Assembly (NCBI RefSeq): GCF_002775205.1
Contig: NC_036447.1
Span: 8,792,501 to 8,856,500 of the forward strand
Direction: 5' to 3'
Length of the DNA stretch: 64,000 nt
Origin: Xiphophorus maculatus
Taxonomy: Eukaryota; Chordata; Actinopteri; Cyprinodontiformes; Poeciliidae
The notes below the pieces were generated by a model. The model saw only the letters and a program-made list of their open reading frames with translations. It made no database searches and was not told the DNA's origin. Below, piece after piece: positions 10,870 through 61,300 of the stretch (its first letter is position 1; each line of letters opens with the position of its first letter). A program made the position numbers and the translations under genes.

Positions 10870-11460
10870 CTGAAGCTTAAAGATGATCTTCTATGCTTCC
10901 TTGAACAGGTTAGGATGGATCACAAAACATGTCAACAATTTTCTTAAATAATGATATTTTAGTCTGCTCATTTCTGACCATTTTAAGCTCCTTCCAGAAT
11001 GAGGTGTTTCAGGGCCTCTTGTCACTTTAAATCCAAATAAGCTGCTGCTGGCCACGCTTTCTCAACTCGACATTAATACTCCGTGAAAACGGCTGCAAAC
11101 AGATGTGCAAAATTACAACCATACATCTTTGAAAAGCAAAAGTGGAGCTTCCTGCACAAAACAACAAGAATGCAGCAAGCGGTTTCTGGATGACAAGTCC
11201 ACAACAAAACGTGTGTCTTTTCCAGCAGCCATTGTACACAGCGATAAAACCAACTGAGCAAACATGCTGGAGCTCCTCTTTGGTTGCTAGGTAATGGACA
11301 GTAGGTTTCTAAAACGGCTCAACATAAACTTATTGCCAAAAAAAAAACAGCCTGGTGGTTTTTTTTAAGCATTGGGCCATCTTTAAAAGCATTAGAGACC
11401 CAAATGGAAAAAATATTCTAAAAAACCAAATTTTGCATAATAGATCCCCTTTGAGATTAT
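10870..11460. mobile_element. Dispersed MITE with X-box-like motif, copy 1
   Basis: This stretch shares order and sequence with 60165-60640 (same orientation) and 48040-48715 (opposite). Shared blocks are CTTCCTTGAACAGGTTAG, atgatattttagtctgctca, TTGTCACTTTAAATCC, GGAGCTCC..TTGGTTGCTAGGTAA and AGAGACCCAAATGGAAA. It ends near gcataatagatccccttt, which is the inverse of its start (aaagatgatcttctatgc), so it has imperfect terminal inverted repeats. No transposase is present. Confidence 0.7.
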
Positions 11461-28200: not shown

Positions 28201-31200
28201 CTCCACAGTTTATAAAAGTAGCTACATCTTGACCTTATATAATGAGGTACTCCACTCTACTCATTTTCATTAAAAGTAATCAACTAAGCAGTTTTCTGTT
28301 TTAAATGTTGGTATAAAGTAATAAGTACTCCACAGTTTAAAAAAGTAATACTCTAAAAAGTATAAAGCTGAAGGACCTTTGATTCAATGCCGATTTTGAT
28401 GATGCTGCCTGTGATGGTAAAGATGTCACTGATGATGAGAAGAATATACCAGCCGTTGATGAACTCAAGCCGATCCGCCCAGCACACTTTACGATCCAGA
28501 GTCTCCCTGAAGTACTGAACAAACTCCTGTAGAGAAATTCAAACATTTGAACCGTCAGATTACTTTACGTTTATGCAAACATACACGTACACAACACCAT
28601 TCAGGTTTTCTGTTTGTGCTTTTGGTTTGATGTGACATTCATGAAGCAGTTCTCTTGAGGTTCTCTTGGTGTTTTTGTTTCGGTTATAACGAAACTCTCC
28701 TACCTGTTGCAGGATGATGCCTCGCAGCAGGGAGCGTCCACAAAGGATCAGAGACAGCAGGCACACCAGAGAAACGATCACGTCGAACGTTACACGTGTG
28801 AAGCTCTCAGCTGTGTTTAAAAGAAAAGAAAAACAACACTAATAGTGATATTTTACATCATTTTGGTTTTGAACATTTATAAATGGACTGTATTTGCAAG
28901 GCCCTGCAAAGGGATTCACACTACATGAACAATTAAACATTTTTAATGTCACATTAATTACATTACTGAATGGATTAGAACATATAGATCTTGAAATTTG
29001 CTACAAGAGAAATCTGTAAATTTATCTGCTGTTCATTCAGCCTGTAAGAAAGCATGAGACTGCATGACTTATTAGTAGATAACAGGAAGGCTGAAAAGGC
29101 AGAAAAGTTGCTGTTTTTGTGGATTTGTAAGTGTTAAACTTATAGAAATCCAAAATGTGTAGACACTTGTTCTACCCTAGAACAAGCATCTACAACCTGA
29201 GGATTTAATGCAGCAAATAGCTTTTTGCTAACTAATGATTTTAAATCCATCCATTTTCTGTTCACCCTTGTCACTAACGGGGTTGGGAGGGTTGCTGGTG
29301 CCTATCTCCAGCTACGTTCAGGGCGAGAGGCGGAGTACACCCTGGACAGGTCGCCAGTCTGTCGCAAGGCAACACAGACACATACAGGACAAACAACCAT
29401 GCACACACACACTCACACCTAGGGAGAATTTAGAGAGACCAATTAACCTGACACGCATGCACAGGGAGAACATGCAAACTCCATGCAGAAATATCCCGGG
29501 CCGGGAATCGAACCCAGGACCTTCTTGCTGCAAGGCAACAGCTCTACCAACTGCTCCACCGTGCAGCCCATGATTTTAAATATAATTACAATTTCAGCTT
29601 TTAGCTGATTTTTATTGAATCATTTTGTTGAATTTCCACAACAGAGTGGTATTACAAATATCAATAATATATTATCTATTTTCCTTTTCATCAGTTTAGA
29701 ACGTGTTTGCTTTTTATTTAAATACCATTTTCCATAAATATCATTATCCCATAGCAGAAAATGTAATGTCTCATTAAAAAGTTTTGTTTTTTCTATTTAA
29801 AACCCAAAAATTGAAGTCCAATTTTAGTTCTTCAAAAATGACAATTTCCTACATCAGAAACCATAAGTTGTCTTCTTTTGAAAAAATATTTGATATTTGG
29901 CTCTAAACAAGTTTATTTAGCCAGACAGAAAGCAAAAATGGCTCTTTGAATTATAAGGGTTGCAGGAAGACTCCTGCTTTAGTAATGCTAACCATGCTAA
30001 CTGCACTTATCGCTAACACAGACTGCAAAGACAAAGTTTAAAATCCAAACACTAGGATTATTTTGTATGTTTTGAAGAAATAGTAAAACCCAGCTATACA
30101 TTTACTGTTCTCTTACAAAGTGTCGCTAATTTGAAATGATCCCTCACAAAAGAAAACATGGAAATTAATATTTTGAATGCTTTTCTTTCATAGTCTTCTA
30201 CTGAAGTTCTTAAAGAGGAACTGGAATCTGCCAAAACTGAAGTAGGCAGGTCAAAGCTTTACAAAAACAAAAATTGGCCAAAATTTTTGTTTATTTCTAG
30301 CTGAAATCAGTAAATATTTTCTTTCAAAGAAGCAATTGCACATATGAAATGATCAGAAATGAGAGGCTTAGTGACTTACCATGTCCAGAGACACTCGGGT
30401 CTTTACATTCCCTTATCATTGCCTGGTTTTCTAACCAGATCTTCACTTTTCCACTGTGAGCCTTGTTGTCCATCACTATCTGAAAGGAAGAATCAGCAAT
30501 ATGCAAATCTTATTATATTACACCAACTTTATGGCTAACAATATCACAGGAAATACAACAGATTTCTACTCCTAATAAAGCGAGTTTTCTTTACTATGAA
30601 ACATTTCAGCAACTTGTAACTAAGGTTTCCCTTATTTACCAGTTAAAGCTTATGTTTTATCAGGTTTATCATGAATGTATTATTTCCAGCCAGGAGATTT
30701 GATCTGTTTTTTATTTGTTTCTTGAAATCCAGTTTGTGACTCTTCTTTTGCATCATGATGTTACCCTTAAACCAGGATAAACTGGATCATTGTTTTAGCG
30801 TCATTATGTTGGAAAGATCATAACTGCTTCAAAAGCACAGGAAAATATTTGTTAGCAGTCCAGTAAAATTAGCACCACAATCACTAAATCTTTTGGAAAC
30901 GTCAAAAAATGATAATATGTTGGAAAATAATATTTAAGAAAGTACTATGACCACTGGTGATGAATACTTTCTTTGCTATTGGTGGAAGCAAAGAAAGTAT
31001 TCAGGCCCTGTAAAAAGGAAACAAAGCAAACAAAATCTCAATGGATGACAATTGTGTAAGAAATATTTTTTCATGGAAAAATTAACCCACATACTGAAGC
31101 TAAAAGAAGCACAACTGTGGGGAAAATTGGAAAATTTGGCTTCTGAAATACCTTAAATGAAGACAAGAATATGAAAAAAAAGAGGACTAGAATAATGATG

Positions 31201-34200: not shown

Positions 34201-37200
34201 ACGGCCAACTGCAGAGATGAAGGTGCAAAATTTTAAAAGTTGAAGGACAAAGAGAAAGCAGATGTTGGAATCTAAACTAAACTAAAACAATCTTTTAAAT
34301 TACCTGAACTAATGTTAATGGACCAGAACACTTTATATATGAAGCTGATCTTATTTATCAATCTTATCTACCTGAGCAAAAGCCTAAAAATCAACCACTG
34401 TCCTCTTCCATTCTCCCATGAGAGAGGTTTGAGTGATAGACTGGCCCACCAGGTCATGTCTGCACATTTGCAGTATTGCCCACTCAGTGACTTTCTTGCT
34501 ATATTTATCAACAGTTCAGACCCCAAAAAATTGGCCATATATCAGGTCAGGATTTTTAAAGATAGGAAATTGGCCAAAAAACTGCAATCGGTGCACCCCT
34601 AACAATAATAATAGTGTCAAACCAAGAAGTGCCAGCTTGGTTTGGAAACTGAAACAATAATTTGACAACTGCTTTTTGCATTTGTTCAGGTTACATTTGT
34701 CTAATATTATCTTTATAATCTGAATTATTCACATGTAAAAGCAAAACACATACAAAAGAAGTCTGTAAGGGAGGAAATATTATTTACGACTGCGTTACAA
34801 AGAAAATAACTCTCAGAGTCCCATAGTTTAAGCACTTAATAATGTCTCAGGATGTCTTGCTTACTGCTGCACATGGACCATAGTGTGCCCTCTCCATTTG
34901 GCTATTTAAAAAAACTTGATGATGATTAAAAAACCTGCTGCAAAACAGAGTAGAGAAGTAAACAGCGAAAATTTTTGATGTACCTGAGCTGTGACAATAA
35001 ATATCTTCAGCACCTGCAGGACCAGCTTGAAGGGTTTGCGTCCTTTGGCGTGATATTTATCACATGGACTCATGAAGAAGTACTTCAGCTTCCTGCGAAT
35101 GGCCTCCTCCTCTTGATCGGCCCCGACCCAGTGACCTGCTGCTGCCGTGGGAAAGTTCTGCTTGTTGTGGTTGCTGTCGTTGCTGTTTGCTTGATGGTCG
35201 CTGCAGTTTTCTGTGGAGCCATAGTGGGTCACTGAGGAGAACAGGCCTGTATGCTCTGCTGGGGCAAAATAAATATTTGTTTACATTTTCAGAAACAATA
35301 TCTATTTTAACAAAAGACTCGTATGTCATCCTAACAGGATTTAAAGAAAAATACAGAGAAACTACTTCAAATCAAAAGTACTGGTTCACTAAATGTTTAT
35401 TAAACATAGACACAAAGTCTTGCTAAAAATTACAATATCTCAAATAAATGCATTATTTATGGAAATGTATTTACCCATATGGAAAAGATGTATATAATTC
35501 TTACACTAAAGACAACATAAGGCCTTTTTGGGGCCTGCCATGCAAAGCAATGGCAGGAACCTAGTGCTATTCTCCCAATTCTTTATTTTTCATCCGTAAC
35601 CGTTAATGCGGCTCATACCGCTGGGTGCACACCTACAAATGAGGTATCAAAACGTGCAGAAAATTCACGCCATTGGAGCTATTACTTTTGGTGGGATTTG
35701 GGGTTAACGTGGCGACATAATTCGCAAAAAACTACGAAAAAAAACACCATTATAAGTCAATGGGAAAAATCCTAGAAATACCCTATTTTTGAGGATTTTC
35801 TGTGTCGTCACGAATTCACGTAGAAATACCATTCAAATTTCATTTTGTAGATACGTCTGTGATCTCTTCGAAAGTGAAGACGGCTCGTCGATACCAGTTA
35901 CGGTTTGTCCACAATTTGTCTCTAAGCGACCCAAAGTTTCTCATTTTTCCGAAAATTAGAGTGAGAGCCAGGGCCTTTAGATCTCGGCTAGAGTGAGAAA
36001 TGAAGAGATTTTTTGAGCCCAAAATAATTTTGAAATCGCCATCACGCCCACAAATATCGCACAATTGGTATCAAAATCGGTCCTCACATTGATACACATG
36101 TCTGCTCCGGTAAAATGTTTTCGAAATTTATCTAGACCGTACGGTTTTCTGTCACGGTGCTTCAGAGCAAAGTCATGCGACAGGATTTTCTAGGCTGTCT
36201 CAGGCTCTTTCACTAACAGTTCACACCTTGGTGTGAAACTTATTTACCATAGCAACGGAACTCAAGAGGCTATTGGCTGCTGATTAGGACTACAAATACG
36301 CATCACTGTAGTTCTATCTATAGTGGACCGCTCAGTTGAAACAGATCAGGACTGAACTGGCCTTTAGAACTACTTGCTGGTATGGGCTGTATGTAACTGA
36401 TTTAACTCAGTAACTGTTACACATGGGATTAGTTTGGAACTTTAAAATTAAGCATAATAATAATTTCAAAATAAAAGCCTTGAATATTTTTAAATCAGAT
36501 ATTTGCTCTGTTGGGCAATATATAACTGATTTAACCCAATGACTGTTATACATGGGATTAGTTTGGCCCTTTGAAATGAAGTTTAACAAAAATTCCAAAA
36601 TAAAAGCCTTTAATATTTTTACATCAACTACTTGTGTTTTGAGCATTATATAACTGATTTTATCCAATGACTGTTATTCATGGGATTAGTTTGGCCCTTT
36701 GAAATGAAGCTTAACAAAAATTTCAAAATAAAAGCCTTGAATATTTTTACATCATGTAATTGCTCTTTTTGGCTTTATTTGACTTTTTCATCCAAAGCAC
36801 TGTTACACATGGTATTAGTTCGGAACTTTAAAATGAAGCATACTGAAAATTTCAAAATAAAAGCCTTGAATATTTTTACATGACGTAATTGCTCTTTTTA
36901 TCTTTATTTGACTTTTTCATCCAAAGCACTGTTACACATGGTATTAGTTTGGCCCTTTGAAATGAAGCATCCTGCAAATTTCAAAATAAAAGCCTTGCAT
37001 ATTTTTACATGACGTAATTGCTCTTTTTGGCTTTATTTGACTTTTTCATCCAAAGCACTGTTACACATGGTATTAGTTTGGCCCTTTGAAATGAAGCATA
37101 CTGAAAATTTCAAAATAAAAGCCTTGAATATTTTTACATGACGTAATTGCTCTTTTTGGCTTTATTTGACTTTTTCATCCAAAGCACTGATAAACATAGG

Positions 37201-40200
37201 ATTAGTTTGGCGCTTTGAAATGAAGCTTAACAAACATTTCAAAATAAAAGCCTTTAATATTTTTACATCAACTACTTGTGTTTTGAGCATTATATAACTA
37301 TTTTAACCCAAGGACTATTACGCATGGGATTAGTTTGGCCCTTTGAAATGAAGTTTAACAAAACTTCCAAAATAAAAGCCTTGACAACATTTTAAATCAT
37401 ACTGAATGGTGCACGTCCACCTTACTTAACGTTCTTGTGATTCTCAGCATGCTATTGATTACGTTGCAGCGTTCTTTAGCATCGATGCCAATTTGTAGCG
37501 TGACAACGCCGGGCCCAAACCGACGGGCACGCCTTGGCAGGCCCCGGCTAAATTTCTTCCGAAATTTTCTAGTTTTTAATATGTTTTTTCTATTTCTTTT
37601 CCATATGGGTAATATCCATGTTTTTTTCTGTTTCTGTTCCTAAACTCCTCTGTTGAGCCTAAGGAAAGTGTGTATACTTCTTGAGCTTTCCCACATTTCA
37701 TCACATATAACAAATGTCAGTGCATGTTGTTGACGTTTGATGACATAGAGCAACAAAAGTAGCACGCAATTGTGAACTTTGTATTTTCTTATTGACCTGT
37801 ACAGCACTTTGGTTGCCTTTGGTTTTTAAAGTGCTTTATAAATAAATAATTGAATGAATTCAAATTTGAAAATATGCATGTTGTACTTGTTAAGGCTGAA
37901 TACAAATGAACAAAAAAATTATAACAATTCAGGTTTTGCCTTACAGTTGTGCACAAGATGCAGCCTGTTCAAACACAAAAAAATCCCAACACAAACATTG
38001 AAGTTTGTGTTACAAGTTGAACTGCTTAAGGTTGTATTAAGATGAATGAAACTGGGAGGAATAGGATTATTTTAGATTTTAAATTAGGGATGTCAGATTT
38101 CTAAGTTTTTGGTCAAGGATTATTTGTTATACATAAAAAAACACCATTTATAGATAAGGGTGGGTCATATGGACTTTGTGGTGCTACTGTGATTATATTC
38201 TGGACATGTGGTGACATGTCAAGTTTAATGCAATGATTGTACTTCTTCAGCCTTTTTGGCTCAATTTATAATGTGTGGTTTTATTGTAAAATACAGAGGT
38301 GTGAACAAACAGCCAACTCACTCACACAAAACCAAAAAATAGAGAAGTACCATTCAGTTTTTATGCTCCTCCAATCTGGAACAAACTTCCAGAAAACTGT
38401 AAAACTGCTGAAACACTGAATCCCTGTAAATAATGGTTAAAAAACCATTTGCGCTATACAAATAAACTTGACATTTTGGCACATGTCCAAAGCTAAACAG
38501 AAAGTAAAAATTAAAATACGATGGGTTGGCCAATGCTGGGCCGTTACCGCATTAATTAATGTCAACAAACTGGCAACTTTACAAGAGTTTCATATCGTAT
38601 CAGTGGTGTAAATCCTGAAGATCAGCCTTGCCAAGTCAGTCTCTGCTATTTAAAACCAACAAACACATCATTGTAACAATTCAAACAGGTTTCAATTTGC
38701 ATCCAAAAATAGTGTTGGTAAAAGAAAAGAAATGGGAAGGAAAGCGTAGAGTATCCATCCAGAAATTATGTATGTCGAAAACGATTTAAACATATATTTT
38801 TGTCAAAGGCGTGCCATCTACTTTACAGACCAGCGTCAATAACAAGCTTTCAAGTTTTATAACTTTAACCTCACTCTGACACCTCCTATGTTGATATCTG
38901 TGTGCAGCTCTTCTGCATGACATCAAAAATCCAACATTGCAACGACTCTTACTGTGTACTTTAGAGGAGAAATCCTCTGAAGTATCAAAAAAATTTTGTT
39001 TTCTACCTTAACTAACTGAAAGAGCTGCAAAAGTGGAACTTATCCCTTCAGTGTGCAATAACACACATCAGCAACACTGAAGGGGAACTATCTTGTTAAG
39101 AACCTGCCGTGTGTGAGCCCATATCTAGAAGTATAAATGTGACAGATTCCTTAAATAGTTGAGAGCTGAAGAAAAATCAATGTTTTTTTCATTATTAGTT
39201 TTTCAGTAAAAGAACAGCCAGAGACAGGACTCAACTCAGCTGAAGCATTTATTCAGTAAAAATATATCGTTATAACTTCAGGATACGATTGGACAAAATG
39301 GCTGAAAAACATGTCAGGATATAAGCATTTCATGTCAGTAGATATCAATATTATTGATTTCTGTTTTAAATATCTGAAATACTGCCAAACTGGTAGAGTT
39401 TTATCCACAGTTTTCACTCTGATTTTTATGCAATTATGAAGAACAGAGGTGAAACCTCAGCAGGGTTACCAGCATGCTTGCTGCTGTGCAAGTTAGTCAA
39501 CAGGTTGTTGCTAGGTAACCAAAAGACTGGAATAAAGTATAAAAAGCATTAACCTAAGCACCTTTGTATGAATATAAATGTTTAAAGATTTTCTTTAAAA
39601 AAAGATGCTGCCTCAAACCTGTACATGTTTCAGCTAAAATGTCAACTTTATCTTATGAATTTGTCTCAGTATTTGTTTTTATTGCTTTATGACCTCAACA
39701 GCATTACTAATGTTGAAGTGTAAACGTGTGCTGCTTGATCTTCCTATTTGTTCTTCCCTCCTGTTTGGTTGACATTGTAAATAATATTCTGTTCTTAATA
39801 ACTCACCTGGTTAAAGGTTAAATAAATTTTAAAAAAAGCAAAACTGGGAGTCAATCTGAGAACTGCTGGTCAGTATATGGAGCTGACTACTTTATTCTTC
39901 CTCAAAAACAGCCCATGACTTCCTGGAGTTTTAACGATATGTCTCTAAACAGTTGAATTTGTCTCTCTTGTAAGCGAGGGAAATTTGTGGTCTGTGCAAA
40001 ACAAAAGTGAACAAGAGAATCCAGATGTTCTGAAAAGAAATGTAAGACAAGTAGACATGTTCTTCTTGGTAAATCTGTGGTACAGATAACAGAGCAGCCA
40101 GTTTATGATTGGAAACAGGAAAACCGCTCAGCACAGAGTGGGCTTATTATTCCTAATACTTGTCACATGTTTTTTTTCCCCTCTCATGGTCAAGCTGTTG

Positions 40201-47287: not shown

Positions 47288-50200
47288 ATGATTTTTTTTC
47301 GATTTACATTTTTGGTTCTTGCTTTAAACTTTTTAACAGTCTACAACAGGCCAGCAGGTAAGCTCATTAAGTTCAAAGACAATTAACCTTTATAACTGAA
47401 TACTGTATTTCTAGAACATTTATCCACAGATAATTTTGACAGAGCTAAGTGTGTTAATATCATCCTAGAAGAAAAAGGCACCTAATCTGAAGAGGTTAAT
47501 ATGGAAGAAGATACTTTACACAGAAATGTGACAATATTCATTTACTTAACACTTTAAACACAGACATGAGAAACGTTTGTAAGAAAATTCACATTTTAAA
47601 ACTTTGCTGGGATAAAAAAAAAAGTATTGTAGTTGATGCATATTTGTAATTGTAAGCATAAATGTTTGTTTTGGATGCATTATTAAAAACACACGACAGG
47701 CGTACTGTGGTGGTGTAGGGGATAGCGTGACGCACATTTGGAGGCCTAGACGCGGACGTCGTGGGTTCGATTCCTGGACCCGGCGATATTTGCCACATGT
47801 CTTCTCCCCTTTCCTGTCAGTCTGCTTTCATATAAGGGACACTAGAGCCCACACAAGACCTGCTGGAGGGGAGAGAAAAAAACACATAACAAAATTAAAC
47901 ATTGTTAGGATCACATTCATTTTTGCCCTGTTTGTTGAAACTCCAAAGCCTTACAAGATCTGCATGGTTGGGCTGAAATCAGTTTCTCCAGCATCTCCTC
48001 TGGAATGTCATTAAAAGAATCCATGTCTTCACAGAAAAAATATTTGCTTTCTCTTTAAATGGGACCTATTGTTCAAAATGTACATGTTGCACATTTTTAT
48101 ATTTCCATTTGGGTCTCAAGTGCTTCTAAAAACAGCCGTTGCTCTTAAAAAAAACACCCAGGTATTTTTTGGGAAGTTTTTGGTTCTTGCTTTAAACTAA
48201 AGCAGGAACTTATTTTTTGGCAATAAGTTCCTGTTTTTTGGTGTTTCAGTTTCAGAAACCTTCTGGTTGTTGAGTCACATTGACGGGCATTACACCGTTA
48301 CCTAGGAAACCCAGCCCATCACCTTAGCAACCCAAGCGGAGCTCCAGCACATTTAGTCAGCTGGTTTTACCGCTTGCATATGCTGTACAATGGCTGCTGA
48401 CAAAACACTTGCAGGAGGCTCCACTTCTGCTTTTCAAAGATGTGTGGTTGTATAATTGCGCATCTGTTGACTGTTGACCATTTTCAGATGCAAGTGTAAA
48501 CGTTGAGTTGGGGGGCGTGGCCAGAAGCAGATTAATTGGATTTAAAGTGACAAGATGTCCTAAAACAGCTCAAAATAGGCAGAACTGACCAGACTGAAAT
48601 CTTATTGTCTAAGAATGATTTTGTGCAAAAAGATTTGATGAACATTTTTTGTATTGTCTGTAGACCTATTCTAACCTGTTCAAGGAAGCATAATAGGTCA
48701 TCTTTAAAGCAGTTTTTTATTGAGTCCAACATTCATTTTAGTTTAAGGCTTGTAATTTAGACTCAATCTCAAATGCCACAAGTGAACGTCCATAAAGTGA
48801 GTGCCTTTCTGGGTCAATGACTTTACTGATCTATAATAAACATCCATCATATTTCTTTCAGGCGTCAACTTGCGTAACATGGAGAGCTTCATCCAAGCTG
48901 TGCAGCAGGTTGAAGACTCCAACCCTGGTCTGTCGCCCTTGGCTCTGGTTAGAGCTTTGCGGAGGACGGCTGGCCATGATGATCTGATGACTATCCATTT
49001 CTTAGGCGCGTCGCACAATCTTAGTGACACAGAGGGTTTGGAGGGATCAATCCTAAATGCAACATCCTTCAGCTTTTTTGATAAGGCTATCCACCACATT
49101 GTGACTGACAACGGTGAGGAGCGCGGGGTGGTCCTCGCTCCGGACGGGACCACGGTTGCTCTTGCACCCCTACTGTTAGGGATTGAATCAGGACTGAAAG
49201 CCAAGATGGAAGGAACAGAAGCTCTTGGGATCTTTCCTCTGTCCCTCGGCAGGACGTTAGGCCTGTCATTTCTAAGCCTTCAGGACATCCCACCATCCAT
49301 GCGTCTGGGTCCCAACGGGTGCTGGGACAATGTGGAGCAGCCAAAGGTGTTTAAGTTATCTCGGCCTGCCACTCTGGCCACAGATGCTGTTATACATGGT
49401 GGCATGGATGGACTTCTACTGGGCATGCATCTGAGCAAGTTGCCAGCATCTGAGCAGCCTCTGGCCCTCAGTGAGATCTTAAGGGGATACTATAATTTCA
49501 CTCTGACTGAGAAACAAGGCATCGATGCTGTGACAAGCTACATTAGCCCAAAGAGAAGGCAACTTTCAAGGCAACTTCTGGAGCCACTTGATCTTCACAC
49601 TGAAGTGATGACGACACTAACATTGGTCTGGAAGCTGGAGAAGACAGAATGGATTGCTCAGGACTCTGGTTTGGGAAAGGCGGTGCAGGAAGGATTAAAT
49701 ACATTTATGCACAGATACCTGGGTGAGTAATGTTATTATGTCGGAGGTATTTAAGCATAAAATAAGGCTGCAGGTAAAACCTGATCTTAAAAGATAAACT
49801 TTCAAAATCAGTCTTTACTTGCTCTTGCTAAACAAACTGTACTTTTGTTTATTTTAGATTTTGATGTCATCTGGTGACATTATGATATATTTTGTAAAGA
49901 GGTGAAAGAGCAACTTACAAAAATGTTCACATTCCTTGAACTTTTTTAAACATTTGTACCAAGTTTCTCATGCTACAAACAACCTTCAATGTATTTTATT
50001 GGGATTTTATGTGATAAATCAACACAACAAAGTGCATGGATTTCTATTCAGTCTGTACACACTACAGAGAACTGTGGTAGTGGCAGCATCATGCTGTGTA
50101 GGGATGCTTGTCTTTTGCAGAGGCAAAGAAGTGGGTCAGATTATGAAGAAATGATGAATTAGCTAAATACTGAACCATACCACCTAGCATAGCATAGAAT

Positions 50201-51787
50201 AGCATAGCATAGCTCAGCATATCAAACCATAGCATAGCAAAAATTAAATTAGCATAACATATCAAACCATACCACACAGCATAGAATAGCATAGCATAGT
50301 AAACTGTAGCATAGCAAGAAGCACTTTAAAATTTGAAGAATGTTGATTAATGTGCTGCAAAAAAATGTAGGATTAAAAGAAAAGGCAGACTATTGGTTAC
50401 AAATATAGAAAACCTCAAGATGAAAAGTTATAAATTTAGCAAAGAAATAAAACAACCATAGACAAAGTCTCACTTTGTTTTGAAGGGCAGGAAGGACAAA
50501 AATACTTTGGCAATAAACTGACATATATATAAATGATGGTGTTGTGAGATAGGAACTAATTAACGGTGTCCTCCTGAATGCAGATTGCCCTCAGATCATC
50601 CCTCGCTGCCAGTGGGGGGCGAAAGCTTCACGGGATACACCGATTCCACTCTCCCTCCCACTCAAGTTTCTCTATGTTCACCATACTTACGAGCCTTCGG
50701 CGCCTTGTTTATCTTTCTCAAGATGCTCCCGTAACATGAGGTCCATGCAACGTTTTCACCAAGAAGACCGTGGATGGAACGACATTGGATATAGGTAATC
50801 AAGTTTTGAAAGTTCCACTTTGTTGCAGAATTGGATATGAAGATCGAAGCCTATACTATTGAATTAAAAATGTGATCATATGTTATTTTTTCTTTGACTA
50901 AATTTGTTGTATGAGGGTTCACAAAGTTGAATAGTTCTGATAACCATGAGCCTGTTTTATTTGTTTCAAATTGCATGAACAAAATTTCTGATCTGATAAT
51001 GAATTTTGTTAAACATCACAATGAATTCAGCTCAGAAACATTTAGTGTGAACAGGACATTATCCTAAAGCACTAAAATAAACTTTTGCCTTAATAAAACA
51101 CAAGAGTCAGATCAATGTAACGCTCTTCCATCTCAGGATACAGAAACAAGCCACTAAGCATTCTGGGAAATAGTTCTCACTCTTGTCTTTTTCTTCTTTT
51201 AGTTTTTTTTAAGTGCTAACCTAAAATCTCTAGTTTCTTCAACTCTTGGAGGTTTGACAAAATTAATAAAAACTTACTGCTGTACCTTTATCTTTCACAA
51301 ACTCACATTTACGTTCAAAATCTAAAACTTTACATTTATTTAGAGAGTAGAAGAAAGTAGACACAAATACTAAATGTGGCTCAAATGTTTTACAGTGTGT
51401 GGGAACCAGCTGCTAAAACGCATCACAACCCATGTCATGATTTCTGATATGTTGAATTATCTATCTTGTATCTTTGTTTTCAGCTTCGTGGTCGGATCTG
51501 ATGGTTACGTCTATGAAGGACGGGGTTGGAACCACGTCGGCAGACACACCAGGGGGCACAACGCCTTGGGCTACGGCGTGTCCATCATTGGAAACTACAC
51601 GGCCACACTGCCGTCTCGCCACGCCATGGACCTGCTGCGGAACCACCTGGCGCTCTGCGCTGTGAATGGAGGAGGCCTGACAGGAAACTACACCATCCAA
51701 GGCCACAGGCAGGTGGTGAACTACACTTCCTGTCCTGGAGATTCCTTGTTTTCAGAAATAAGAAGCTGGGAACATTTTAGAGGATGA
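47288..51787 (+). CDS. pglyrp2: Peptidoglycan recognition protein 2 (N-acetylmuramoyl-L-alanine amidase), complete
   Basis: This is a secreted zinc amidase that cuts the bond between muramic acid and L-Ala of bacterial peptidoglycan. Exons: 47288-47357, 48862-49722, 50584-50794, 51484-51787. Phases 1/1/2 agree, giving 1446 nt and 481 aa. Exon 1 codes a signal peptide (MIFFRFTFLVLALNFLTV). Exon 2 holds the vertebrate PGLYRP2 N-terminal region (GVVLAPDGTTVALAPLL, NGCWDNV). Exons 3-4 hold the PGRP/amidase_2 domain from about residue 311. Zinc ligands are visible: His about 343 (YVHHTY), His about 455 (IQGHRQ) and Cys about 464 (TSCPGD), and the active-site Tyr lies in NDIGYSFVVG, so it should be catalytically active. 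An upstream alternative ATG at 47281 is out of frame. The neighbour downstream is a g-type lysozyme. Confidence 0.95.
47703..47880 (+). mobile_element. tRNA-derived SINE, second family, in pglyrp2 intron 1
   Basis: A plus-strand tRNA-like head (ctgtggtggtgtaggggata) is followed by a B-box-like GGTTCGATTCC at 47764-47774. A body follows with ctttcatataagggacacta and an A-rich end. It differs from the 9048/29245 family. It is not a functional tRNA gene, since no cloverleaf with an acceptor closes. Confidence 0.75.
48040..48715. mobile_element. Dispersed MITE with X-box-like motif, copy 2 (in pglyrp2 intron 1)
   Basis: This copy is inverted relative to those at 10870 and 60165. It starts ctttaaatgggacctattgt and ends aggtcatctttaaag, imperfect inverted ends. 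It keeps ccatttgggtctcaagtgct, gttacctaggaaacccagcc, ggagctccagcacatttagtc, gatttaaagtgacaag and taacctgttcaaggaagcat. Confidence 0.7.
49925..50165. mobile_element. Tc1-like element remnant 2 (in pglyrp2 intron 2)
   Basis: It contains caatgtattttattgggatt, ttatgtgataaatcaacaca and then gtggcagcatcatgctgtgt / agggatgcttgtcttttgca. The last part matches the Tc1 transposase DNA coding the 'GGSxMxWGCF' region. The frame is broken, so this is a dead remnant. Confidence 0.6.
50165..50320 (+). repeat. 'atagc' pentamer minisatellite
   Basis: The runs agcatagcatag recur several times. A larger unit is seen twice: catatcaaaccatagc / catatcaaaccatacc, each followed by gcatagaatagcatagcata. It lies in intron 2 of pglyrp2. 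Confidence 0.85.
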
Positions 51788-52047
51788 CACAAGATTCCTA
51801 AATCTAATTTTGACCTCTGATGTAGTTTGATTAATGTGAATTGGTTAATTTATCCAACGAAGAAGCTTCAATTAAGACCCATGTGGTTGATATCAGATTT
51901 TGTTAAACAGATTAACTAAGAAGTTATTATGCTTTTCTTTCCCAGACTAGTTTAAAGAATACTAAAGCAACAAATTACTTTAATAGAGTGATGGAGTAGA
52001 GATGGCAAAATGTTCCCTAAAGCAATGTCACTTTTCAGCTGCAGAAG

Positions 52048-52180
52048 AATAAAAGAAAATTTCACCACATTTGACTGTTTTTGAGATCTAGTTCACTCTC
52101 TATCTAACCAACAAAAAAACAAACTGCAGCTGTTAAAAATAATAACAAAAAGTTGTGATTTTCTTATATTTCTCAATAAA
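52048..52180 (+). terminator. pglyrp2: Poly(A) signals of pglyrp2
   Basis: AATAAA occurs at 52048-52053 and at 52175-52180, about 260 and 390 nt past the pglyrp2 stop. Either could be used. Confidence 0.6.
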
Positions 52181-52429
52181 ATCTCTACATAACCACATTC
52201 CATTCAACATCTGAATTTGAGTCAACGCCATAATAATCCTCGCCAGACAACAGAAAGCATCCTCGATGACTGTAAAACACTAAATGTTTGTATTTTAAGA
52301 CTTTATTTTCAGCACAACAACATTCATCCACATGTTCTGCTTTCATACAGCAAATGATGTGCTGGAAATGAGCGAGCATTATCACTCTTGGCGTAAAAAT
52401 CTGGTTTCCTGTATTCAAAATGCACACAA

Positions 52430-52770
52430 ACACTCCAACGGTCAGAATGGGACTTTTCATGCACAATTTCCTGTGTTGCACTGAGTGTGATAACACAGAC
52501 GAAAGTAAAAAGGTTATAAAAGATTGTCCTGCACCCACTGCGTTTACACCCCAGACGGCAGGACAGTGAACAGATCTTCCACTTCAGCTCCAAGTGAGCA
52601 TCAGCAAGAGAAACTGCAACAATGAGTGAGTACTTTTATTGTTTATATGATGTATTTTGTCCGGCCAAATTCTGCTGTAACATTTAAAAGAAACAGAAGT
52701 ATTCACTTTATCTCCTTAAATATAAAATATTTTATTTATTACGTAAAAAATAAACATTATTTCAGACATA
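52430..52770 (+). promoter_or_regulatory. Duplicated lysozyme promoter plus first exon (upstream copy)
   Basis: This stretch aligns with 54330-54680 through the TATA box (ttataaaag, 52514-52522), the leader (gatcttccacttcagct, cagcaagagaaactgcaa), the ATGAGTGAGT start/donor (52622-52631) and about 150 bp of intron. No further lysozyme exons follow before the real gene. Exon 1 codes only ATG-A before its GTGAGT donor, so splicing from here to exon 2 at 54765 would yield the same protein. This copy has a kappaB-like GGGACTTTTC (52449-52458) that I do not see in the downstream copy. It is either a relic of a tandem duplication or a working alternative promoter. Confidence 0.75.
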
Positions 52771-54360
52771 GCTTGCTCAAAATGTGGTACTGGGTTTACC
52801 ATCAGAACGTCAGTTTCCAAAACCACACACACACAAATATGGAAAAGCTCACGTGGGATTAGTACGACCTCACCAGACAGGGCACAGAGTAAAAAACTTA
52901 TGAGGTCCAAATGACCCCAATGCTCAAAACCACTGGAGGGTCAATAAACAATTAGTAGCAGAGGAATCAACCGAGTTTATTCCTTGCAGACAATTCAGAG
53001 GTGATTGTGCTTCCTGTCTCCACCTTGTTGCTTTTCCTGTTTGGTGAAATGCACTCATGCTGTGTGGGGAAAGTCTCAAAATTAGGCTGTGCATGACTGC
53101 AGACAGAATTCTGAGAAAAATATGAGAAATGAGAATAAAAAGTCAAAGTTCTGAGGAAAACATTCAGAATTTTGTGGAAAAAGTCAGAATTTGAAAAAAA
53201 GTTAAAATTCTCAGAATTCTGACTTTTTACCTCAGAAGATTTAATTCTTTTATTTTTCCTCTGTCCATAGTCGTGTTCTGTTGTACTCTGCAAAATTATA
53301 TCAATGTAATGATGTTCGGTATTATTTAACTTTAAGAAGTACGGTACTCATCGAGTGCAGACGTGTTACGCCCCTTATGAGTAAAGACTCTACCTGTAGG
53401 GGAATAATGAAAACACGGACACGATGTCACTGCTTTAGTCTCCAGTGTTGCAATGGAGGAGCAGAAGCGTCGCGTTCCCCTACATCCGATCAGACAAAAC
53501 CAATCGAAACTCGAACGATTAAACTCTCATAACTTAAAATCTAAAAGGTTGAACTTTTCAAGAATTATAAACAAACATAGCCGGAAAAGTAACATTAAAG
53601 AAAAATACATTGTTTTTAAACTTCATTAAACTTAGGCTACCTTTTACTGTATCTGTTTGTAGCACTGAACTTGAAAGATCAAAATAATCGATCGCAGATC
53701 ACTAGATCTTGTTTTCCCTTTTGGTTGTCTAAAATAGTTTTATAACCACTACAGAGGCAGCTGTTTAGTTATATTTTAGAGGTTTATTAATGAATTTCAT
53801 CAATACATTTTACCACAACCGGCCCTTTGAGGACATTCATAATCCTGATTTGGCCCAAAATAAAACTGAGTTTTGCATCTTTGGACTGAAGGCATACTAT
53901 CACCACTTACTGGATGAAATTATGACGCCTGTACAACGTAATTATCACGTTTGTATAATTTAATTATGATTTATACAATACTTCATTACGTTTGTGCAAT
54001 TTAATTAGCACATCATATGATAAAAGTACCATGTTTATGAAAGTTAATTGTTACGTTTGAATAATATAATTTTATTGTAATGTTTTGTCTGAGTCAATCT
54101 GTAGTCTAAGGAGAAATTAATGTTCTGTGCACTATGTCCTGCATTTATCAAAAAGAGCAGAATAGGTTTGTGTAAAAGGAAGTAAAATTAGTCAATAAAT
54201 AAATAAATGACACTGACACAATAATTAAGATAGCGAGTGATCTCTTTTTTTAAAAAAAGAAAACGCCTGTCTAATCGGGCGTGGCTCTTGGGAAACTTTT
54301 TCCTTTGGGTGCGTCTCCCTCCTCTGCAAACAACTGACGTTGAGTGTGAAAGCACAGATA
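52771..54360 (+). other. Spacer between the two lysozyme first exons
   Basis: I looked for copies of lysozyme exons 2-5 and saw none. A purine-rich run of gaaaaa/gtcagaatt motifs lies at 53100-53220. The open frame at 53281-53532 has no domain. The spacer is otherwise AT-rich. Confidence 0.5.
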
Positions 54361-54365
54361 GACGC

Positions 54366-54426
54366 GAAACAGAAACTAAAACCAACTGCAGTATGTCAGA
54401 ACGTGAAAGGAAAAAGGGTATAAAAG
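54366..54426 (+). promoter_or_regulatory. lyg: g-type lysozyme promoter: ISRE-like site and TATA box
   Basis: GAAACAGAAACT at 54366-54377 fits the ISRE/IRF pattern GAAANNGAAA. A TATA box (tataaaag) is at 54419-54426, about 105 nt before the ATG. A second GAAA-rich stretch (gtgaaaggaaaaaggg) lies between. Interferon/IRF control is inferred from these motifs only. Confidence 0.6.
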
Positions 54427-54530
54427 ACTGTCCTGCATCCAGCACGTTCCTAGTCCACTCCTGACTGCTGAACAGGGAGCAGATCTTCCACTTCAGCTTA
54501 AAGGGAACTTCAGCAAGAGAAACTGCAAAG

Positions 54531-56057
54531 ATGAGTGAGTATTTTATTGTTTATACGATGCATGATGTCTGGTCAAATGCTGATGTCAGACTTAAAAGTA
54601 AGAGACTTTTTTTTGGCCTTAAATCTAAAGTATTTCATTAAGTAGGCAAAAACCAAGTATCATTTCAGACAGTGTAGCTGGAGACGTGGTTAAAGAAAGC
54701 ATTTGATTTTATGTAAAGATTTGTCTATTTCATGCACTTTATGTAAATGCCGATATGTTTACAGGTTATGGAGACATCAACAGAGTTGAAGCTTCAGGTG
54801 CCTCTGAGAAGACCTCTCAGCAGGACAGACTGGGTTATTTTGGTAAATACTAAAGATAAGCATATGACTGAACTGAAAATGTTGATCTATTGTGCTGAAA
54901 AAGAACAAACTTGTGAAATTGTAACTTCTCCAAACAGGCGTGAGGGCATCAGAAACCATGGCCCAAACGGATTCTGGGAGAATGAATAAGTACAAATCAA
55001 AAATCACCAGAGTGGGAAGTCAGTCTGGTATCGATCCTGCCCTTATTGCTGCCATCATCTCCAGAGAGTCCAGAGCTGGAAACGTCCTGCATGACGGTTG
55101 GGGGGATCACGGTAACGCCTGGGGACTCATGCAGGTCAACAAATACTATTTAGGTCTAACGTGCAAAATCTTGGCAATTGACTCCAAAAGAAAGATTTAC
55201 AACTATTTCAATTTCCAAAAACATGTAGGTGGACATTAGACATCACCGTAAGGAAGGAGACTGGGACAGCGAGGAGCATCTCCGCCAAGCTACAGGGATC
55301 CTTGTTCATTTCATCAAAAGGATTCAGAACAAGTTCCCGAACTGGAGCAAAGAGCAGCAGCTGAAAGGTTTGTTTCTCACAATAGCCTCTTTGAGAAAAT
55401 ACTCTTGAGCAATTGTCTGAAAAGTCTTCCAACTGCCTTTCTTTCACTTGTGAGAAAACTCAAGATTGGGGTGAATTGAAACTTTGGTAATTATATATCG
55501 ATGTTATGCAATACCAGGTTCAACGTCTTCTTCCCTCTTACATAAATTATTCATATCTACAAATCCGCTCTGTTGAAACATGAACATTTGAGGCTGTGGC
55601 TCACCTCTCTGACTGAACATTTAACTATTGCATTGCACATTTTGAGAGGCTTACCGCTGCTCTATAGCAAATTAAGCGCCCCCTGCTGTTCAGCATTCAA
55701 ATTGACTCTGTGTAGCATTCATTGGCAAGTTCACATCTTTGCTGTTCAAATGAATAAATAGTTTAAATATTACATGTGCCATTGTTGATCACTTTACTCT
55801 GGTATATATTTTTTCTTCAGCAGGCTGTAGGATAAGTTGGTGAACTAATAAAAAATATTTAAAAAGCACATTGGCATTCCGGTTGTTATAGTTTGATCAT
55901 TATGACTTTTCTTTTCTCTGCAGGGGGAATAGCGGCCTACAACACGGGGGATGGTAATGTCCATTCGTATGAAAATGTGGATGAAAAAACGACTGGCAAA
56001 GATTACTCCAATGATGTTGTTGCCAGAGCCAAGTGGTACAAAAGAAACGGTTTCTAA
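54531..56057 (+). CDS. lyg: Goose-type lysozyme, complete, 5 exons
   Basis: This muramidase cleaves the MurNAc-GlcNAc backbone of peptidoglycan. Exons: 54531-54534, 54765-54842, 54938-55134, 55229-55367, 55924-56057. The total is 552 nt and 183 aa, a normal size for fish LysG. The start is [14 protein letters not shown], without a signal peptide, as in many fish LysG proteins. The goose lysozyme catalytic acids are all kept: Glu71 (IISRESRAG), Asp84 ([10 protein letters not shown]) and Asp95 (GLMQVD, split across exons 3/4). The [16 protein letters not shown] block is conserved too. A read-through of exon 3 (to 55239) is not real, because the next exon starts at 55229. The first exon holds only four coding bases, so its donor overlaps the start codon region. 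It lies 2.7 kb downstream of pglyrp2 on the same strand. Confidence 0.95.
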
Positions 56058-56169
56058 AGTCTGTGGCTGATAAGCCAGAGTGTATTCAGCGAAAAAGAAA
56101 AAAATACTTTCATGCATGCAACCGTTTTAGATTACTATATGCTTGATCTACTGTATGTCTCCACAGTGA

Positions 56170-56188
56170 AATAAATACCTTCAATAAA
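56170..56188 (+). terminator. lyg: Poly(A) signals of the g-type lysozyme
   Basis: Two AATAAA hexamers (56170-56175 and 56183-56188) lie about 115-130 nt after the stop. Confidence 0.8.
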
Positions 56189-58130
56189 ATTCAATCCATT
56201 TGTTTAATACACAGATTACACAGTTATCTGTGTATTGAATAGATTTTTATTTAGTCGGAGCTAAACTGGTGGAAAAGTCATGTTTAGAATCAACAGCGTC
56301 CATTATTCCCACAGTGTTAAATCTGATGCGTAAAGAGAAATTCGTGTTTTGTGCAGAATGTCTTGCATTTGTAATCAAATACTGCTGAATAAATTTTGAT
56401 AAAATGGTAAATACTAATTATTGAAATAAATGTAACAAAATGCATAATTTTCTCATGTTGCAACCAAATGCAATTAACTGAAGACTGCAACATTTTCATG
56501 GTAACGATTTATTTGTTGACTTTAGGCTTGATGACTTCACAAAAGACTTGGGATTCAATTTGCCACTAATAACTTCATTCAAACTTGAGCCTCTTGACCT
56601 GAAAACAGCTGATATCTTACACCAAACAGACAGTACGTCATTTAAGGGAAACTGACTCTGTCTTGTACTTTAAATAATAAACTCATGTTAATTTTCTTTG
56701 TTTCCTGTCAGTTTGCACTGATTACCCAGAACCTGCAGGTCTGAACCCCACATGCAATCAAGTGTAAATGAGGTAAAGAGGTTCAGTGAGATAACTGTGT
56801 ACCAATTAGAGAAAAATCATGTTCGTGGTAATTTCATTTGTTCACCCAGGCGTTAGGGAGGTAATAATGTCCAACAAGTTAAAAACTAAAGTGGAGTATG
56901 ACCAGTGTCTAATATTCTTGCTTGCTTGTTAAATCCATTAAGTGTTTATTACGTTCCTACTCAGATGTAAAGCCAAGAAGCTGTGGCAAATTGGCTTTTT
57001 ATGCAGAAGGTAGTACTCTGCTATCCTTGCAGCGCTGATAATGTAACATCACATAACTAATGCTGCCTTCATTGAAACATCTGGTAACTTACACTAATTA
57101 GGCTGAACTGTTAGCCTGATTTAAACCCCATTCAGTCCATCTAATGTCATGTTTTGAGGCTTTTGAGGAGAAAGTTGCAGATGGATTGATGGTGAATTTA
57201 ATGATGGACTTACAAAACTCAGAGGAAACTCAGAAATTAGGGTGATAGGAACAGAAGATTGACAGAATGAAGCCAAGGAGTTTAAATACTGTGGAGACAT
57301 GATTGTGGCATGGGAAACAGGTGAGTACAATAAACAAAATGAAGAGCAGCAGGGAGAATCTAACTGAGGCAGGAAGAAAAAAATGGAAACAGAAAACCAT
57401 TAGAATAAGACAGAGTACACATAACACCAAAATTATTTCCATAAAACTTACCTAATCAAGACCAGTTGTACTTTGGGGGAACGAAGTCTGGTTTTAATTT
57501 GATAAAATGTTGTTTTATGAGTTAGAGCTACTGTTTAACATGGGGAAGGACTAGAAGTGGAGTTTGCCCAAACTCAAAATTCATTCCATTTGTTGACTTT
57601 TTATCCGACAAACACAAAGTACAGCATGATTTTGAAATGAAAGGAAAATAATACATCACTTTTCAGGTTTTCAGAAATGCAAATCTGTGAACACATTTAT
57701 TCTGGTAACACTAAATAGAATAAACTAATTGCCTTCAGAAGAGTAAATATTTAACGTTTTCAACAAACCACATAAGTGACAAAGTTTTCATCTGAAAAAA
57801 GGTGTTCAGGACGCAGACGACAGTTAAAAAAAAATAAAATCTGTATTCAGAGCTTTTGTAGTACAAATAAAAGTATTTCTTATAGCTTCATACAAATTAG
57901 ACTTATTTGAAAATGGTAAAATAAATACCTTTCTGTGAGTCTTAAAGGTTGCAAATCCCATAGCCAGAAACATTCCTCTTGTACAACACAATTAAATAAA
58001 AATAAGCTAATGATACGCTAAGAAGTTTTGAAACTTTCCACCTTTTTTTTGCCTTCTCCTGGTGCAGTAAATAAACATGAGAAACATCCCTGCAAATATA
58101 TTCAGATCTCAGAAATCGATTAAGAAAATG
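56189..58130. other. Intergenic between lysozyme and the Gfi1-like gene (tail to tail)
   Basis: No exon is supported on either strand. A Tc1-like remnant lies at about 57590-57760. Minus-strand frames of 69-70 codons near 57121-57442 are rich in Phe/Leu and look like chance. Confidence 0.5.
57590..57760. mobile_element. Tc1-like element remnant 3
   Basis: The blocks 'acaaacacaaagtacagcat', 'gaaatgaaaggaaaataata', 'cttttcaggttttcagaaat' and 'actaattgccttcagaagag' match, in order, the body of the degenerate teleost Tc1-type MITE also seen at 21875 and 49925. Confidence 0.55.
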
Positions 58131-58366: not shown

Positions 58367-61300
58367 TCAGCGGTAGGTGCAGTGGTGCTCCTGGTGCTGC
58401 CGCAGGTCCACTTTGTGCTGGAAGCTGTAGTGGCAGAGAGTGCAGCGGTAGGGCCGGTCGTCCCTGTGCTTTCGGCTGTGCGTGATGAGGTTGGAGCTCT
58501 GGCTGAATGCTTTGCCGCATATCTGGCAAACATGAGGCTTCTCCCCTGCAAAAGGCCAACAGGTCAAGGTTTAAGAGTTTCTGAAGGGTTGAATTGCACG
58601 TGATGTCATTCCTCTATTTCATTTCTACATGATATTAATGATTAAAATGCTACTGATTCAAATTCAAAAATACTTTATTGATCCCAAAGGGAAATTAAAT
58701 GTTGTTGCAACTCATATTAATTTAAATTAAGAGTTACTGTAGATAGTAATGGATGTTGGCAGGAAAGATCTCTTGTAGGTGTCTGTGTTACAGTGAATTT
58801 AAAGAAGCCTCTGACTGAAGACACTGTTTTCCCAGGACAGTCTCATGAAGAAATAAATATAAAAAACTACTGATAGAAAGACGCACCAATAGACTTATAC
58901 TGTCGTTTTCGTCTTCTATAGTAAGATAAAATGAAAAGAAAATCCTACTTTTACTCAAAAAATACTTTTTTATGTAAAGAGTAAAGAGTCCTTTTTCTGT
59001 TGCCAAGATTAAAACCTTTTCAAATTGTTGTAATTAAATCAGGAGTTGTGCAGCTAAACTCAGCATGCAGACAGGAATCGCTCTCTCTACGAGCAGCATG
59101 CGCCCCCTACTGGGTAGCAGCTAAACTACAGCTCTGGAAAAAACTAAGAGCCCACTGCACTGACTGAAAACCTCCTGGTTATTCCACCAAATATTGATTT
59201 ATGAACTCCTCCTGAGTTAAAATATTAGATTATTGTTTCTAAATGAATATGAAGTTGTTTTCTTTGTCTGAAAGCACTGCATCTTTTTTGTTATTTCGAC
59301 CATTTCTCATTTTCTGCTAATAAATGCAAAATATTTGCTTGGAATTTCAGAGACATGTTGTCAGTAGTTCATAGAATAAAAGAACAATGTTCATTTCACT
59401 CAAACATATACCTATAAAAAGTAAAATAAGAGAAACCGATCATTCTAAGTGGTCTCTTAATTTTTTCCAGACCTGTATATAAAAATATATAAAAAGCGCA
59501 GCAGCTTATAGAACTGTGGAACATTTTTATACATTGTGTTAAACACCAGTTTGCATCTCATTACAGTATTGGTGTGTCACAGCTGCAGTGTACAACATTA
59601 AGTTTCAGTAACTATCAGAAGCTCAACTCAGCATCTTCGTGTCAACAATGCTAGCGGCTAGCATAAACCTGCCTGTGTGAATGAATGTGTGTTTCTTCAT
59701 GTCCGACTTCTGGTGGAATCTCTTGCCGCAGTACTGACAGGGGTAGGGCCGCGTGTCCGAATGTATGAGCAGGTGAGTGGAGAGGGTGGAGGAGCGCTTG
59801 AAAACTTTCCCACACACTTCACAGCCGAAGGTCTTCTCCTGAAACGTGGAAGTAAGAGTCGTTAAAATACAACATTCAGTGCTGCTTTCTGAATATAAAG
59901 GATCTGTAAAGCATCTGTGGCTCTGACCTTGCCCCTGTGTGAAGACTTCTTATTATCAGCCCTGCTGGCCTTGAAGTGGGTAGCTTTGTTTCCATGACTT
60001 TTACATATATGTGTCTTCAGGCTTGACAGAGATGAAAATATCTGCAGAAAAGAGATGAATGACTAGACTAGTCAGGGAGTCTGGTTAAACATTAGAAAGT
60101 GTTTGCAAATATTTAAAAAATCTACAAATATTGAGAGTTCTTGGTGCAAAAGTCTTTCAGCTCTTAAAGGCGACTTATTATGCTTTCTAGAACAGGTAAG
60201 AGCACACAAAACATGTTCACTACATTTTCTTTAAAACAAAATCATTCTCAGATAATGGTATTTTAGTCGGCTCAGTTGCGCGTATTTTGATCTCCTTTCA
60301 AAAGTAACTGTTTTAGGATCCCTTGTCATTTTAAATTCAAAATGGTCACAGAAGTCAGTGTTTACACTCACATAAAAATGGCTGCAAACAGATACACAGT
60401 TATACAAGAAAAATACAGCTGAGCAACTGTGCAGGAGCTCTCCTTGGGTTGCTAGGTAACGGGCTGGGCTTCTCTGGGGTTGCTTGGTAACGGGCTTTGC
60501 CTGGGCTGCTAGCTCATTTTCCAGATCCCAAAAGAACATTAACTTAATCCTAAAAATCAGCTATATGGGTTTTATTTTTTGGGGTTTGTTTAGTCGCAGT
60601 AGAGACTCAAATGGAAGCGCAAAAACATTCAAATTGTGAATAGTTTGAAATGTTGACATACTTTGCCACAGAGCAGACACTCGTGTCTCAGTACACTGAT
60701 CCTGGAGCAGCTGCTGTTCCTCGCCTCCCTCTCGATGTGCTGTGGCAGAGTCAGATGTCCCAGGTCCACTGACAGTTTGTCTGGATAATCTGAGCTCACG
60801 GCAGAACTCAGCCATGCTCCTGTTGCGGGAGAGACAGCGCCCCCTTTCTCCTCTTTGATAAAGGCACACTCTATAGAAAAGAAATGCAGGGTATTAAAAA
60901 AAAAAAAATCACATCGTCATAAACCTATAAAAATGAAACCTCCGACGATCAAATTTGAAAACTTTTTCAACACTTGTATGCTCTCAATCTAAATACTGCA
61001 TGTGTGGCGTGAAATAATCTGTCAGTGCAACTACTACTTTTTCATCAATATTAAAGAATAAATTACTTAAGCTCATATATCTTTAAGAAAAGTTACTTGT
61101 AAGTTAGTTTGTCTTATTTCAAGTGTACTGAGATATTCAAACATGTATTTTTGATCTTGAAACTAGAAACTAGACCAAAAAACTTGGTAAAAATATTGTG
61201 TTTTTGCAGTAAAAACATCTGTACAATTAAAGTTTCAAGTCTTTTATTTCTATAACTTGATTCATCAAGTTTGAGATGAATGAGCCAAATCTATTTGGTT

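Follow-up and report, generated by a model that had tools for sequence, protein, structure and literature searches.

A 64,000-nucleotide stretch of the Xiphophorus maculatus genome (NCBI RefSeq assembly GCF_002775205.1, contig NC_036447.1, positions 8,792,501 to 8,856,500 of the forward strand; here called the window) contains a single intact g-type lysozyme gene, and the promoter and first exon of this gene occur twice, once in place (P2) and once 1.9 kb upstream (P1). The reading that we favour from the sequence, with a probability of roughly 0.72, is that P1 represents the surviving front end of a tandem duplicate of the whole gene that was stripped of its exons 2-5, and that it would act at most as a minor second promoter.

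Two collinear repeat pairs around the lysozyme gene

P1 and P2 were 76.5% identical over 293 alignment columns (expectation value, E, 1.4e-42), a score matched by none of 200 dinucleotide shuffles, and four ungapped blocks between them kept a start-to-start spacing of 1903-1909 bases. An earlier note on this DNA had described the two copies and the absence of exons 2-5 from the sequence between them, and both observations were confirmed: no lysozyme exon 2-5 sequence was detected there. The features of the upstream unit (unit 1) and of the intact unit (unit 2) on which the comparison rests are as follows.

52482..52499, + strand, 18-base match at the upstream edge of the repeat in P1
52501..52788, + strand, P1, upstream copy: core promoter, leader, exon 1 and start of intron 1
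52515..52522, + strand, TATA box of P1, TATAAAAG
52622..52625, + strand, P1 coding exon 1 (ATG-A), with the donor from 52626
52789..54093, + strand, interior of unit 1 (1305 bases), no lysozyme sequence detected, the presumed former site of exons 2-5
54094..54226, + strand, B1, 3'-flank copy of the upstream unit (E 2.6e-10)
54341..54358, + strand, 18-base match at the upstream edge of the repeat in P2
54359..54403, + strand, 45-base block present in P2 only, from an alignment with lenient gap costs, containing a motif like an interferon-stimulated response element (ISRE)
54405..54690, + strand, P2, copy of the intact gene: core promoter, leader, exon 1 and start of intron 1
54419..54426, + strand, TATA box of P2, TATAAAAG
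54531..54534, + strand, P2 coding exon 1 (ATG-A), with the donor from 54535
56318..56449, + strand, B2, 3'-flank copy of the intact unit

The TATA box, the ATG and the donor are all intact in P1, with TATAAAAG (from 52515 and 54419) and ATGAGTGAGT (from 52622 and 54531) exact in both copies, and neither predicted leader holds an upstream ATG. Identity between the copies was 84% in the core promoter, 82% in the leader, 92% in exon 1 with its donor (12 sites), 78% in the early intron and 73% in the later intron. Dating the event via promoter identity was tried and given up, since these segment identities fit a kept P1 and a recently orphaned P1 alike. The 18-base match that forms the upstream edge of the repeat was identical at 16 of its 18 sites, a level reached by 2 of 1000 mononucleotide shuffles, and after it P2 alone has the 45 extra bases.

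The second repeat pair, B1 and B2, was 68% identical over the gapped alignment and 72% identical over 129 ungapped sites, and none of 200 shuffles scored as high. B2 lies beyond the two lysozyme poly(A) signals, and 114 bases separate the end of B1 from the 18-base match at the P2 edge. We considered the B pair as a dispersed repeat and rejected this, a third copy of B1 or B2 being absent from the window; the segment 51790-52500, examined as a further 3'-flank copy, aligned no better than shuffles. The order on one strand is P1-B1-P2-B2, and this order argues that the duplicated unit was likely the whole gene and that the upstream unit later lost exons 2-5, a duplicated 5' end collinear with a duplicated 3' flank being the layout expected of the remnant of a whole-gene duplicate. 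The earlier note had proposed a partial duplication as the origin of P1, and this proposal sits poorly with a correctly ordered duplicate of the 3' flank.

Recognisable remains of exons 2-5, which would also be expected of a gene remnant, were not detected between P1 and B1 (52789-54093) at either the nucleotide or the protein level, despite good power. When exons were inserted in simulation at 28% divergence, exon 2 was recovered in 80 of 100 insertions and exons 3, 4 and 5 in 100 of 100 each; at 35% divergence, the recoveries of exons 2, 3, 4 and 5 were 46, 100, 96 and 90 of 100. Because such diverged exons would mostly have been detected, the exons of unit 1 were likely removed or replaced rather than eroded. 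In the course of events that we favour, the whole g-type lysozyme gene would have been tandemly duplicated, and exons 2-5 of the upstream copy would then have been lost or exchanged for other sequence, from intron 1 (~75 bases before exon 2) to the 3' flank. An imperfect inverted repeat (53088-53294) also lies in the interior of unit 1, possibly left by a small mobile element or by the exon-removal event itself. A transposon in the interior was not supported beyond this inverted repeat, as the one long frame tested there matched no Pfam family.

The intact gene and predicted transcription from P1

The intact gene encodes a protein of 183 amino acids from the ATG-A of exon 1 and four further exons, which lie as follows.

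54765..54842, + strand, lysozyme g exon 2
54938..55134, + strand, lysozyme g exon 3
55229..55367, + strand, lysozyme g exon 4
55924..56057, + strand, lysozyme g exon 5, stop codon included
56170..56188, + strand, two AATAAA-type poly(A) signals, at 56170 and 56183

The protein matched the Pfam family SLT (3e-07) and the cod goose-type lysozyme 3gxk (E 8.4e-82), and it was 98% identical to a lysozyme g-like protein of Xiphophorus hellerii. The SLT fold, together with goose-type lysozymes as nearest relatives, identifies the gene from its sequence as a g-type lysozyme (fish LygF1). ATG-A plus the four exons make one frame, in keeping with the five coding exons described for g-type lysozyme genes (PMC4243810; this and the other papers cited here are drawn on as excerpts).

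As computed from the sequence, joining exon 1 of either P1 or P2 to exon 2 at 54765 gave the same 183-residue protein. On the favoured reading, RNA polymerase II would still start near 52545, ~30 bases after the P1 TATA box, and the donor at 52626 would be joined to 54765, skipping the 2.1 kb that hold P2, so that transcription of the gene would begin at two sites and still yield a single product; part of the P1 RNA would be lost to a competing donor and to higher-scoring interior acceptors. The competing donor is the following feature.

52594..52599, + strand, predicted competing donor (gtgagc) in the P1 leader, without a counterpart in P2

Splice sites were scored with a weight matrix, which is coarse in that it gave the lysozyme's own exon-4 acceptor only 1.9. 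The donor CAA|gtgagc at 52594 scored 7.8 versus 5.2 for the exon-1 donor; splicing from it would eliminate the start codon, and the first in-frame ATG would be at residue 35, behind an out-of-frame open reading frame (ORF) of 26 codons. Eight predicted acceptors between P1 and exon 2 outscored the exon-2 acceptor (6.0), three of them clearly (52990, 53236 and 53271, with scores of 8.2-9.9), and acceptor-like sites in the P2 leader (54476 and 54504) could draw exon 1 of P2 into a P1 transcript. Because of the 52594 donor, these acceptors and the acceptor-like sites in the P2 leader, as scored by this coarse matrix, P1 would be expected, if it fires at all, to supply a minor and leaky share of lysozyme transcripts. 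Thus, the earlier proposal that either copy can splice to exon 2 and yield the same protein, at no cost to it, goes too far, since a donor that would skip the start codon and higher-scoring acceptors are predicted for P1.

The same proposal had suggested different inputs for the two promoters on the strength of two motifs, as follows.

52449..52458, + strand, kappaB-like GGGACTTTTC, on the P1 side only
54366..54377, + strand, ISRE-like GAAACAGAAACT

The ISRE-like GAAACAGAAACT matched its pattern exactly, one of 2 matches in the window against 0.76 expected, and at least two matches occurred in 18 of 100 shuffles. A role for it is plausible because it stands ~42 bases before the P2 TATA box; it falls inside the block that P1 lacks. 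The kappaB-like GGGACTTTTC misses the strict consensus GGGRNNYYCC, for which the window has 6 matches against 4.03 expected and none at 52449, and a looser pattern, chosen to include GGGACTTTTC, had 2 matches in the window against 1.83 expected. For P1, the suggestion of different inputs is therefore weak, since the motif departs from the consensus and the looser pattern is no commoner than chance; on the P2 side, the motif is exact, rarer and near the TATA box.

Lysozyme g genes of relatives and the alternative readings

The lysozyme locus adjoins, on the same strand and upstream, a gene of which the last frame bears on the comparison with other fish.

51374..51787, + strand, frame with the last exon of a PGLYRP2-type amidase gene (Pfam Amidase_2, 3.6e-12)

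Relatives were compared as proteins; 947 were found, of which the best 120 were listed and 17 fetched. Five of the 17 fetched models (P0007, P0008, P0009, P0012 and P0033) begin with MSYG, as the ATG-A exon predicts, and eight have odd N-termini that we mapped onto the window. Those of three b-type models, P0025 (guppy; 50578-50694), P0015 (Poecilia mexicana; 51566-51619) and P0002 (P. latipinna; 52294-52362), fell in the amidase gene or in the flank before P1. The N-terminus of P0003 (guppy a) matched 54288-54314 in the flank of P2 (E 0.001), that of P0005 (guppy a) matched 54719-54766 in intron 1 of unit 2, those of P0001 and P0006 matched 54755-54787, a segment of little diagnostic value that belongs largely to exon 2, and that of P0011 had no match in the window below E 2.6. 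The remaining four, left unmapped, were the partial P0004, P0113 with the N-terminus of P0006, and P0017 and P0030 of Cololabis with a hydrophobic N-terminus. P0001 is the X. hellerii record and begins with MFTGYGD, the last bases of intron 1 being read as coding and the four-base exon 1 being missed; an exon of this size is often missed by automatic gene models.

Guppy P0025 and P0003 are 85% identical. We built two trees, one from 25 of the 120 listed proteins plus the window protein and one from 11 proteins plus the window protein; P0025, P0015 and P0002 grouped with P. formosa (94/95 and 86/91), apart from guppy P0003. The guppy thus likely has two lysozyme g genes in the order amidase - b - a. 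Because the Poecilia N-termini map both to the unit-1 side and to unit 2, the most economical interpretation is two Poecilia genes in this order, with the body of b lost from the window. Tandem lysozyme g copies are known in some fish (PMC4243810), and the neighbouring record numbers of Scortum barcoo (amidase L3Q82_019620, lysozyme g proteins 019621 and 019623) fit tandem copies beside pglyrp2.

Several points weigh against this account. Gene order in Poecilia was read from gene models and not from the relatives' DNA, and P0025 and P0015, two of the four b-type models, are short by 19 and 21 residues, for which reason the b gene of Poecilia may be misannotated or decaying. The five Poecilia rows formed one weak side of the tree (55/73), which would fit a duplication confined to Poecilia, and the protein tree is compatible with a duplication before or after the Xiphophorus/Poecilia split: in the approximately unbiased (AU) test, a grouping of the window with X. 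hellerii and guppy a was neither shown nor rejected (p-AU 0.319), and p-AU was 0.115 for this grouping with Gambusia added and 0.053 for a grouping of guppy a with b. Excerpts of PMC4243810 describe a single lysozyme g gene at this place in most fish besides zebrafish and cavefish. In addition, the search for B copies was confined to the window, and the conserved TATA box and donor of P1 may reflect only a recent loss of exons.

Alternative origins for P1 would dispense with the lost gene body. A partial duplication of promoter and exon 1, with the B pair as an unrelated second event, would have had fewer bases to copy and accounts for the lack of exon remnants, yet it requires a second, independent duplication that by coincidence is collinear with the first, lies on the same strand and has the right order relative to the gene, and the Poecilia gene models point to two genes; we consider it quite improbable. 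That the upstream gene exists and was mis-assembled is very improbable: tandem paralogues are hard to assemble, but there is no N in 48000-58000, copies that are 76% identical are too different to collapse easily, and 1.3 kb of unrelated sequence separates P1 from B1.

The remaining alternatives concern what P1 does now. We hold it about as probable that P1 is a decaying leftover, its transcription of no consequence, as that it is used in any way. Orphan promoters usually decay, the unit lost its exons, and P1 both lacks the 45-base ISRE block and has a start-skipping donor that P2 lacks; against decay, P1 and P2 agree at every one of the 19 sites of TATAAAAG and ATGAGTGAGTA, for which the rough chance is 0.6% if both copies drift at the mean rate and 9% if P1 alone drifts, an argument weakened by the fact that the sites were picked after being seen. 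That P1 works as a second promoter under inputs of its own (NF-kappaB at P1, as opposed to interferon/IRF at P2) and was retained for broader control is rather unlikely, although this is compatible with the history of a whole-gene duplicate. In its favour are the intact TATA box, start and donor of P1 with a leader free of upstream ATGs, the same product from either copy, the ISRE-like motif near the TATA box in the block found in P2 only, and the alternative transcription start sites of cod LygF1b (PMC4914998). Set against these are a kappaB-like site that departs from the strict consensus and whose looser pattern is no commoner than chance, and the competing donor of P1 and the higher-scoring interior acceptors; moreover, the higher identity of promoter and leader (82-84%) than of later intron and B pair (72-73%) could be explained by constraint on P2 alone. 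It is improbable that P1 instead drives a separate short RNA in which exon 1 is joined to the acceptor at 52990, 53236 or 53271 and which terminates at a poly(A) signal within the interior, to give a non-coding product or a tiny ORF. The three acceptors score 8.2-9.9 against 6.0 for exon 2, AATAAA-type signals lie in the interior at 53518, 53594, 53625 and elsewhere, and such joins would give first ORFs of 12-36 codons; however, the scores come from the same coarse matrix with its 1.9 for exon 4, and AATAAA-type signals are common in AT-rich DNA.

Neighbouring genes, known systems and significance

The amidase upstream of the lysozyme was 94% identical to a guppy amidase over the joined query. 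P0207 (Xyrichtys novacula, 716 amino acids) is a gene model that fuses Amidase_2 to a lysozyme g SLT domain, with a methionine at the lysozyme's usual start. Among the three fetched amidase models longer than 650 amino acids, P0207 contains lysozyme g, and P0174 and P0225 are without it, so that long amidase models as amidase-lysozyme fusions in general were rejected. P0207 and the Poecilia models that join amidase-gene exons to exon 2 may represent real amidase-lysozyme read-through splicing or a shared annotation artefact.

A C2H2 zinc-finger frame on the - strand (59623-59949), which we take to be GFI1-like, lies near the lysozyme gene. The frame 27359-27727, presumably mucolipin-like, matched no families in a Pfam search. 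Mcoln1a and Pglyrp2 are among the genes near lysozyme g genes in a figure legend (PMC4243810), and mcoln1, pgrp2 and lysg lie on one Solea clone (PMC6579814). Other repeats in the window include a tandem array at 36367-37459 with a period of ~129 bases, seen as overlapping self-matches, and two sets of dispersed repeats, each probably a transposon family (8879-9556 and 29070-29715; 10877-11156, 48410-48707 and 60158-60444).

The architecture proposed here is already in print for the plant gene PEP1, of which the lysozyme locus would be a further instance, known so far as a sequence. In Arabis alpina, PEP1 consists of a full and a partial copy in tandem, the duplication covering the promoter, exon 1 and a portion of intron 1; both copies of exon 1 are spliced to one exon 2, both transcripts were proven by cDNA, the predicted proteins are identical in the accession Paj, and the authors suggest that the locus derives from an array of full-length genes (PMC3527215). 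The two loci are alike in that two promoter/exon-1 copies serve, or at the lysozyme locus could serve, one later exon set in compatible phase. They differ in that PEP1 is a flowering gene with exon 1 copies 6.3 kb apart and a duplicated segment of ~2 kb (PMC3527215), whereas the lysozyme is an animal immune gene with copies 1.9 kb apart and a P1 transcript that is only predicted. Unlike PEP1, the lysozyme locus also has a leftover 3' flank pointing to a whole-gene origin. UGT1-type multiple-variable-first-exon clusters, in which the first exons share constant downstream exons, offer a second comparison. They likewise have several first exons in tandem, but these are variable and lead to protein diversity (PMC1885805), whereas the four-base exon 1 here would leave the protein unchanged. 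Atlantic cod LygF1b is another fish g-type lysozyme with alternative start sites, which give products with or without a signal peptide (PMC4914998), whereas both copies here would yield the same protein. The tandem lysozyme g duplicates of zebrafish, cavefish and medaka (in medaka, LygF2) belong to the same family and are likewise tandem copies, but excerpts of PMC4243810 describe fish tandem copies as genes, and here one copy amounts to a 5' end and a 3' flank. No title on a duplicated lysozyme first exon appeared in our literature search, which was mostly at title level and covered few subscription journals.

It is unlikely, though consistent with the sequence, that the surviving gene inherited the promoter of its upstream sister and so acquired a bacterially tuned promoter beside an interferon-tuned one; the protein would be unchanged because coding exon 1 is only four bases long. 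If true, this would be an animal counterpart of plant PEP1 and would suggest a general way in which tandem paralogues with very short first exons, as they die, pass their regulation on to the surviving copy. If P1 is used, the locus offers a clean natural experiment in how a promoter is inherited once its gene is lost, with the same protein behind two promoters, and relatives may retain the upstream gene for comparison; if it is unused, P1 is what birth-and-death evolution has left behind in a family of tandem immune genes. Whichever reading holds, the four-base coding exon 1 eases promoter capture.

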